DNA from: Halanaerobium hydrogeniformans
GTDB taxonomy: Bacteria; Bacillota; Halanaerobiia; Halanaerobiales; Halanaerobiaceae
Direction: 5' to 3'
NCBI RefSeq assembly: GCF_000166415.1
Contig: NC_014654.1
Coordinates: 1,178,001-1,242,000, forward strand
DNA: 64,000 bases
Position numbers and translations under genes: made by a program. Shown here piece after piece: positions 23,895 through 53,423 of the stretch. Positions within the stretch are counted from its first letter, which is position 1. Every line of letters begins with the position of its first letter. Under the pieces are notes generated by a model. The model had not been told where the DNA came from. It did no database searches and worked only from the letters and a program-made list of their open reading frames with translations.

Positions 23895-24618
23895 ATGCGA
23901 TTATCATTTAAATTCAAGCCTAAATTAAGCCATAAGCAATTAGTAATAATTAATGAATTAGCCTGGCATTGCTCTAAATTATATAATACAGTTAATTATC
24001 AGGTTAAAAACAATAAAGATGTAAAAGCTGTCTATACTGAATTAGAAACTAGATATAAAAATAACTGGCATAATGACTACCTTCACTCCCATAACAGACA
24101 GCAGGCATTAAAGCATTTAGCTCAGGACTGGAAAAGTTTTTTTAATTCTCTCAAAGATTATAAAAAGAATCCTCAAAAATATAAGGGGCAGCCAGGGTCA
24201 CCTAATTTTAAACATATGAACAGTAATCCCTGTGAAATAATTTTTACCAATTTAGCTGTTAGAATTAAAGATAACAAATTACTCTTATCCTTATCTAAAA
24301 AGATACAATCTAAATATAATGTGAAAGTCACTAAAGCTTTTAATTTATAATACGCAAGGAAAGCTTTAGTATGACCGTATTCGATTTGGCCGCTATTCAG
24401 TAGATCTGGAAAAAATAAATAAAAGTAACTATGATAAATCCAGAAGAATTACTAGAGGTCTCTTTAAAAATAACGAGGGCCTATTAATTAATGCTGATCA
24501 GAATGGTAGTTTTAATATACTTCGTAAATACCATAACGATAAATGTATTCTCAGACCTATCAAAGAGGCGAGAGATAATGGATTTGTGGACAATCCTTCA
24601 AGATTAAGGGTATCCTAA
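23895..24618 (+). pseudogene. tnpB: tnpB remnant, copy 1, missing its middle
   Basis: ATG 23895 follows GGAGGTG. Codons 1-144 are intact TnpB N-terminus (MRLSFKFKPKLSHKQLV). Then comes the 61-nt palindromic element, which brings a stop at 24348. After it the C-terminal part resumes (YSVDLEKINKSNYDKSRRI, INADQNGSFNILRKY) to TAA near 24616. About 600 bp present in copy 2 are missing, including the first RuvC motif. The junction is explained by recombination between two copies of the 61-nt element. Confidence 0.85.
24330..24390 (+). repeat. 61-nt palindromic element, recombinant copy
   Basis: ACTAAAGCTTT at the start pairs with AAAGCTTTAGT in the middle, and a conserved tail ending CGTATTCGATTTGG follows. 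The left half matches unit A of copy 2 (TATAATACGCAAGG) and the right flank matches unit B (GCTATTCAGTAGAT). Confidence 0.8.
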
Positions 24619-51849: not shown

Positions 51850-51880
51850 ATCTAAAATTGTCAAGAAAACTCCATTCAAG

Positions 51881-52012
51881 CTATGCATTGGGGGAATGGT
51901 GTTCATATTGCTTTTTGATAAGTCTTGAAGATACAGTTTTTAATATATTAACTAACTTAGATAATTGTACCTGAGGTGGATTTTCAAAGAGGATATGCAC
52001 ATGATCTTTTTC
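51881..52012 (-). pseudogene. tnpA fragment, middle part only
   Basis: The minus strand reads EKDHVHILFENPPQ and SKLVNILKTVSSRLIKKQY, the region around the HUH motif of IS200 TnpA, here DHVHILF. The start and the catalytic tyrosine part are missing. Sequence upstream in this frame is antisense to tnpB and not TnpA. Confidence 0.75.
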
Positions 52013-52344
52013 TCCTCCATTTTTCCTTTTATAAGCAAACATATGTATGGTATAATTATAGTAGAATGGAGGTGAAAAATCAATGCGATTATCATTTAAA
52101 TTCAAGCCTAAATTAAGCCATAAGCAATTAGTAATAATTAATGAATTAGCCTGGCATTGCTCTAAATTATATAATATAGTCAATTATCAGATTAAAAATA
52201 ATAAAGATGTAAAAGCTGTCTATACTGAATATGAACAGTAATCCCTGTGAAATAATTTTTACCAATTTAGCTGTTAGAATTAGAGATAACAAATTACTCT
52301 TATCCTTATCTAAAAAGATACAGTCTAAATATAATGTGAAGGTC

Positions 52345-52405
52345 ACTAAAGCTTTTAATTTATAATACGCAAGGAAAGCTTTAGTATGACCGTATTCGAT
52401 TTGGC
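52345..52405 (+). repeat. 61-nt palindromic element, unit A
   Basis: The unit starts ACTAAAGCTTTTAATTTATA and ends GTATTCGATTTGGC. An 11-bp stem (ACTAAAGCTTT with AAAGCTTTAGT) encloses TAATTTATAATACGCAAGG. Excising 61 bases restores the tnpB frame. Confidence 0.85.
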
Positions 52406-53002
52406 CTCCTTAATTTTGAGCTGCTTGAAGCAGTTCAAAGCATTATAGATTTAGATGCTGTCCAACAGATAAAGATAAAGCAAGATCATATCTCTAAAAG
52501 ATGGTATCTACTAATCATCTACAAAGTTAAAGAGGCAAAAGAAAGTAAGAAATCTAACATAATGGCAGTAGATCTAGGTCTTGATAATTTGGCTACTTTA
52601 ACATTTAAAAACAATTCTGAGTGTTATATTATCAATGGTAAAACTATTAAATCCAAAAATTCTTATTTTAATAAAGAAATTGCCAGACTACAAAGCATTA
52701 GAATGAGGCAGTTAGCTACCAGTAAAATTAGAGATACTAAACGAATAAAATATCTGAGATTAAAGAGAAGAAATTATATTAGAGATTATATCCATAAAGC
52801 TAGTTGCAAAATAGTTGATTTAGCAATTGAAAATCAAGTAGAAACTATTGTAATCGGAGACATAAAAAATATTAAACAATGCAGCAAGCTTAAATCTTTT
52901 GTCCAAATACCGATCCAGAGATTAAAAAAATTAATTGAATACAAAGCTAAACTAAAAGGTATCAAAGTTGTTGAAATTGATGAAAGCTATACTTCCGGAT
53001 GT

Positions 53003-53063
53003 ACTAAAGCTTTTAATTTTAGTTACGCAAGGTAAGCTTTAGTATGACCGTATTCGATTTGGC
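53003..53063 (+). repeat. 61-nt palindromic element, unit B
   Basis: The unit has the same length and tail as unit A and differs only at a few loop bases (ATTTTAGTTACGCAAGGT). With the base before it, TACTAAAGCTT pairs with AAGCTTTAGTA. Excising 61 bases restores the tnpB frame. Confidence 0.85.
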
Positions 53064-53291
53064 CGCTATTCAGTAGATCTGGAAAAAATAAATAAAAGCA
53101 ATTATGATAAATCCAGAAGAATTACTAGGGGTCTCTTTAAAACTAACGAGGGCTTATTAATTAATGCTGATCAGAATGGTAGTTTTAATATACTTCGTAA
53201 ATACCATAACGATAAATGTATTCTCAGACCTATCAAAGAGGCGAGAGATAATGGATTTGTGGACAATCCTTCAAGATTAAGGGTATCCTAA

Positions 53292-53423
53292 ACTATTAGG
53301 AGCAAAACTTAAAAGCCAAACATCTTGTAAACTGACCTAGTAATATAGGTTGAACTTTAATCTATATGAAGCAGTTAGAAGCTCCCTCTAAATCTTGATT
53401 TTGATTTAGGTGGAGAGGTTCAC
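53292..53423 (+). ncRNA. Possible omega RNA scaffold / right end, copy 2
   Basis: This is nearly the same sequence and hairpins as in copy 1. A guide would begin at TTGACATCAG, which is the cad promoter. Expression is unknown and TnpB here is broken. Confidence 0.4.

Follow-up and report, generated by a model that had tools for sequence, protein, structure and literature searches.

Two copies of a short palindromic repeat interrupt a transposon-borne tnpB gene of Halanaerobium hydrogeniformans, and we conclude, with a probability of about 0.78, that both are insertions of a small, protein-free mobile repeat built of two hairpins, which spreads on its host insertion sequence (IS) and by recombination and which may owe its mobility to a putative hairpin-recognising activity. 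The window referred to throughout is the whole stretch of 64,000 nucleotides analysed in the present study (positions 1178001-1242000 of the host genome, a single contig of 2,613,117 bases). Within one tnpB frame, a 62-nt direct repeat occurs twice, as units A and B, with 92% identity and a spacing of 658 nt (Table 1), at the places where a sequence-only reading had located them. A 30-nt tail together with a piece of the stem was found three times in the window and in none of 100 shuffled sequences. The gene belongs to an IS605/IS1341-type element whose tnpA is reduced to a remnant in the window; the TnpB of IS605-type transposons is the ancestor of Cas12.

Table 1 Coordinates of the repeat units and their host element in the window
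Feature	Position	Strand	Details and basis
IS605/IS1341-type element carrying A and B	51852..53423	+	Left flank TTTAT, right end GGTTCAC
tnpA (IS200-type, Y1), C-terminal remnant	51881..52183	-	ORF list; PF01797 match at genome 1229890-1230018
tnpB (OrfB_IS605 / Cas12f1-like TNB)	52083..53291	+	Broken by units A and B and a 173-nt deletion; domains from Pfam matches on intact copy L184
173-nt deletion junction	52226..52232	+	Alignment; shared by L203 only; unrelated to the units
Unit A, inserted DNA	52343..52406	+	64 nt, TCACT...GGCC; shared 62-nt repeat at 52345-52406; filled AAGG / 64 nt / CTCTTAATTTTG, empty AAGG / CTCTTAATTTTG; R2 score 69.6 bits
Unit A, hairpin 1	52345..52385	+	Outer stem ACTAAAGCT.../...AGCTTTAGT, apical part ACGCAAGG; fold, covariation over 14 and 26 family members
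Unit A, hairpin 2 region	52390..52404	+	CC GTA TTCGA TTT GG; stem weak in this subfamily; alignment to subfamilies with GGCC-ATCGA-GGCC or GCGC-ATCGA-GCGC
Unit B, inserted DNA	53003..53066	+	64 nt; shared 62-nt repeat at 53003-53064; filled/empty alignment at GGATGTA / GTTCAG; R2 score 59.4 bits; exact limits ambiguous by 1-2 nt
Unit B, hairpin 1	53003..53043	+	Fold, covariation
Unit B, hairpin 2 region	53048..53062	+	Alignment of family members
Third window unit	24330..24391	+	In a second copy of the same IS (L016/L200)

A search of the host genome returned 20 near-identical units, all 20 of them in copies of the same IS605/IS1341-type element. A and B occur together in four of these elements, A alone in four and B alone in two; a further six are A/B recombinants with the left flank of A, the right flank of B and the intervening 658 nt gone, a form that includes the third unit of the window. 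At least five further elements have neither unit. Empty sites in intact tnpB copies, which the sequence-only reading had proposed to look for, are available in the same genome. The empty A site reads GTGAAGG/CTCTTAATTTTG, and filled copies have 64 nt (TCACT...GGCC) at the slash, with 63 nt in one A-site copy elsewhere in the genome; the empty B site reads GGATGTAGTTCAG, and filled copies have 64 nt extra. These comparisons correct the 61-nt length originally estimated, although the local frame argument attached to it survives, 61 and 64 both being 1 mod 3. Excision at each unit had been noted to restore the reading frame, but taking out both would not make the window copy intact, as it also lacks 173 nt near 52228-52230; the start-to-A distance is 244 nt, compared with 417 nt in full-length tnpB copies. 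Four copies without units encode an uninterrupted TnpB of 423 codons, and a diverged tnpB homologue in the same genome, used as an outgroup, has neither unit, from which we conclude that the units are insertions. The contrary possibility, that these bases are native tnpB coding sequence, was sought in the same copies and rejected. Neither terminal inverted repeats nor target duplications were found at the true empty and filled sites of A and B or in a second genome with filled/empty pairs (G007), in agreement with the sequence-only reading, whose description of a small, non-autonomous palindromic insertion element present twice in one tnpB is likewise supported.

The insertions appear to be recent, because unit-bearing copies mostly keep all three tnpB segments fully open, yet private substitutions are nearly neutral (nonsynonymous 33, synonymous 18, stop 1, against an expectation of 72:23:5; small numbers), in copies with and without units alike. 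In trees of the three segments, the A and B states are scattered and the topologies disagree, which indicates heavy gene conversion or recombination among copies. Differences of 1-3 nt right at the junctions hint at recurrent hits on the same sites.

Signs of mobility were also found in other genomes. In G007 (2,309,262 bases), a pair of near-identical IS605 copies is distinguished by the exact gain, in one of them, of a 62-nt unit head to tail with an older one; the gained unit, an independent insertion, has a new hairpin 1 stem and a hairpin 2 identical to that of its older neighbour. A second G007 unit lies inside tnpB, with empty, intact copies in the same genome. One unit is nested within another in G019 (L164), and G022 has near-identical units at places unrelated to each other. 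Units are over-represented in IS605-type elements, which hold 15 of the 24 matches in G007 (in five IS605 copies, together about 10 kb) and, in a single IS, 20 of the 32 in the host genome; part of this excess may reflect insertions being tolerated there. Among the independent insertion points examined (AAGG, GATGT, ACCGTC, CTTCC and GGTTT), no common motif was found, and no rule for the strand emerged.

Models of the wider family, built initially from 14 units and later from 26, describe a repeat of 58-65 nt with a common anatomy: a 9-bp hairpin 1 with the inner loop ACGCAAKG, a short hairpin 2 whose loop is usually ATCGA, and a GTC or GGCC end. Folds of single units are unremarkable (z of -0.6 and -2.0), so the hairpin structure is visible from covariation only. 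Across 26 sequences, 95% of hairpin 1 cells are paired, with 59 two-sided against three one-sided changes; none of 500 shuffles scored as high for percentage paired or for covariation, and sliding the pairing out of register gave far lower scores. The stem of hairpin 2 is weak in the subfamily found in the window; other subfamilies have a strong one (GGCC-ATCGA-GGCC, GCGC-ATCGA-GCGC). The near absence of G·T pairs from hairpin 1 suggests a hairpin formed at the DNA level rather than RNA pairing.

The models match 38 of 59 genomes of the Halanaerobiia, a class of salt-loving bacteria (21 are unit-free), the richest with 50, 33, 29 and 28 copies; sampling of the phylum (about 390-399 genomes) gave no match beyond the class. 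The superfamily model may combine hairpins that arose more than once; their loop, order and ends agree nonetheless. Besides the 20 close units, the host genome has 12 weaker matches, among them a five-unit head-to-tail array between two genes (1520617-1520915) and one unit in the fabG-acpP interval. Of the other family members examined, most lie outside genes. Head-to-tail arrays of near-constant period are present in the host genome, G013 and G022, and BLAST brought up relatives from further Halanaerobiales genomes, some of them in tandem arrays with a period of 62-63. An exact-pattern scan of genome contigs yielded 12 loci, two of them real (L068 and L072) and most others chance matches in unrelated genes. 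No covariance model of Rfam matched at the units (17 loci), no match indicated viral, phage or plasmid carriage, and our literature search found no description of this repeat for Halanaerobiales.

In the reading we prefer, a repeat of roughly 58-65 nt, hairpin 1 followed by hairpin 2 and a GTC or GGCC end, inserted at two sites of tnpB and broke the gene. IS copies moved in trans by an IS200-type TnpA and mixed by recombination would have carried the units to 16 elements, and recombination between A and B would have produced the single-unit deletion form; spread within the host genome needs only IS transposition and recombination. For the insertion step, a putative strand-specific nuclease/ligase or recombinase may recognise the hairpins as single-stranded DNA and join the unit to single strands that lie exposed, as they would abundantly in IS605 transposition intermediates. 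A broader version, in which the element throughout the class is a folded recognition structure and nothing else, targeted by a putative hairpin-recognising enzyme to exposed single strands (IS605 intermediates above all) with TnpB disarmed only incidentally, is put forward tentatively, and we are inclined to doubt it.

Among the alternatives, a miniature IS200/IS605 derivative, PATE- or REP-like and mobilised through its hairpins by a Y1 transposase (TnpA or RAYT), survives best and is nevertheless unlikely. Hairpins, the lack of inverted ends and of target duplication, and the strong IS605 association all agree with it, and fused IS605 ends, 52 bp in length, make up some PATEs (PMC3119063). 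The check for a Y1 transposase recommended by the sequence-only reading found an intact Y1 TnpA adjoining one A+B copy in the host genome. The resident IS bears the mark of Y1 transposition: it inserts 3' of TTTAT, which flanks nearly every copy that has a readable left end, and has TTCAC at the right end in all ten copies compared, whereas the unit sites have no such motif in common. By eye, the units show no likeness to the IS ends (CTAAAACTGCCAAG... on the left, ...GATTTAGGTGGAGAGGTTCAC on the right). G022 has a single Y1 transposase fragment above threshold despite its 33-34 units. Because of these three observations, we consider Y1 mobilisation less likely than a putative hairpin-recognising activity on exposed single strands, and they also speak against the IS200/IS605-type origin initially proposed: the link to IS605 lies in the place of insertion and not in the composition of the units. 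Further against a Y1 mover, the surroundings of the other Y1 gene in the host genome (181 aa, at 576666) are free of units, and the units that are near other Y1 genes are those within IS605 copies. No mobilising gene for the units was found.

It is also possible to dispense with a dedicated enzyme, if hairpins were copied by template switching at stalled forks or on IS605 single-stranded intermediates and quasi-palindrome correction kept the stems perfect. The absence of target duplication, the 1-3 nt junction changes, the nested and tandem positions and the rarity of G·T pairs would all follow, and the last of these could stem from template switches that correct palindromes instead of from recognition of single-stranded DNA. 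We rate this account as quite unlikely, given that the order, loops and ends conserved across the class exceed what correction would keep and that units almost identical to each other occupy unrelated sites in G022.

A third proposal, which we hold to be improbable, is that the units are structure-specific recombination sites like integron attC, inserted and arranged head to tail by a tyrosine recombinase as cassettes consisting of the folded site only. Arrays of near-constant period in three genomes, covarying stems in which unpaired bases are conserved and G·T pairs few, recombination between A and B, and the lack of target duplication are in keeping with such sites. The boxes of attC are GTTRRRY and RYYYAAC; by eye, they are not evident in the units, and no cassette genes lie between units. 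Least credible of all, and very improbable, is a translational bypass element or RNA-spliced insert that is skipped or removed after transcription so that TnpB is still made, an idea favoured by the equal frame effect of two 64-nt units and by the open segments of most unit-bearing copies and opposed by the near-neutral substitutions with and without units (by which open frames mean recency), by the location of most other family members outside genes and by the lack of any bypass or intron family match to the unit in Rfam.

No defined family accommodates the repeat; SMR-A, PATEs and tagged REPs come closest, each failing at least one defining feature. The palindromic elements of Rickettsia are also small palindromic repeats within coding sequence, and their insertions keep the reading frame, whereas the units described here shift it. 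REPs with a GTAG or CGTC tag consist of one hairpin, 20-40 bp in size, whose loop has 4-5 nt in the CGTC type, and they are rarely placed head to tail (PMC3733652). They resemble the units in being short, palindromic and numerous per genome, in lying partly in genes and in occurring partly within larger palindromes (PMC3733652), and some members of the present family end in CGTC, 3' of hairpin 2. The units differ by their second hairpin, by the large internal loop of hairpin 1 and by their arrangement in arrays; those of the window, two-hairpin repeats of 64 nt, end in GGCC with no GTAG or CGTC tag, and the RAYT association of GTAG-type REPs has no counterpart at the 181-aa Y1 gene. SMR-A small mobile repeats of the archaeon Haloquadratum walsbyi are about 110 bp long with prominent terminal inverted repeats (PMC3119063). 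Like the units, SMR-A repeats are short, protein-free and without target duplication, and they prefer IS605-type elements and PATEs as targets (PMC3119063); the preference for IS605-type targets recurs here, whereas the units have 58-65 nt, two hairpins without inverted ends, and head-to-tail arrays. PATEs share with the units the absence of inverted ends and target duplication, palindromes near the ends, and repeat-mediated core deletions comparable to the A/B recombinants (PMC3119063). However, the palindromes of PATEs are similar to IS605 ends, and their insertion requires a target of 4-6 nt (PMC3119063); the units have neither IS605-end likeness nor a fixed target of this kind 5' of their insertion points.

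Small mobile repeats without a known mover, such as SMR-A and CGTC REPs, are an old puzzle, of which the double-hairpin family is an unusually clean case, with filled and empty copies side by side, near-exact ends, covarying structure and recent tandem gains. A complete host genome with an intact Y1 TnpA is available for testing. In addition, the haloarchaeal repeats known to attack IS605-type transposons have in this family a bacterial counterpart.

Several minor observations concern the surroundings of the units and of the IS. One tandem array is located in the gap between rpsS and rplB (L110, 1435-1680), and a second genus has units in the same gap (L122, 1460-1565); the stems differ between the two genera and the arrays adjoin the Shine-Dalgarno region. 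The genes for tRNA-Ile, tRNA-Lys and tmRNA at L136, L153 and L135 each have a unit starting at their 3' CCA end, where CACCA opens the 5' arm and NCACC appears again to the right of the unit. A larger repeat of G022 (AAAGTGAGTTCTTAGTTTTCC ... GGCAGTTAGCTATCGGATAAA) bears units in either orientation (L112, L114, L117, L118, L113 and L116), elements of G019 with inverted ends AACTGCAAATAGATGTT / AACATCTATTTGCAGTT (L164-L177) contain units, and at L060 a unit lies near the 5' end of a group II intron. Some IS copies (L188, L191 and L199) have a longer right-end hairpin, with CGACGCGAAGCTAGTATCTCTTTTGATGC inserted. Finally, the tnpB of the G007 IS copy L301 carries a further GC-rich palindromic insert (about 945-1007), for which L302 provides the empty site.
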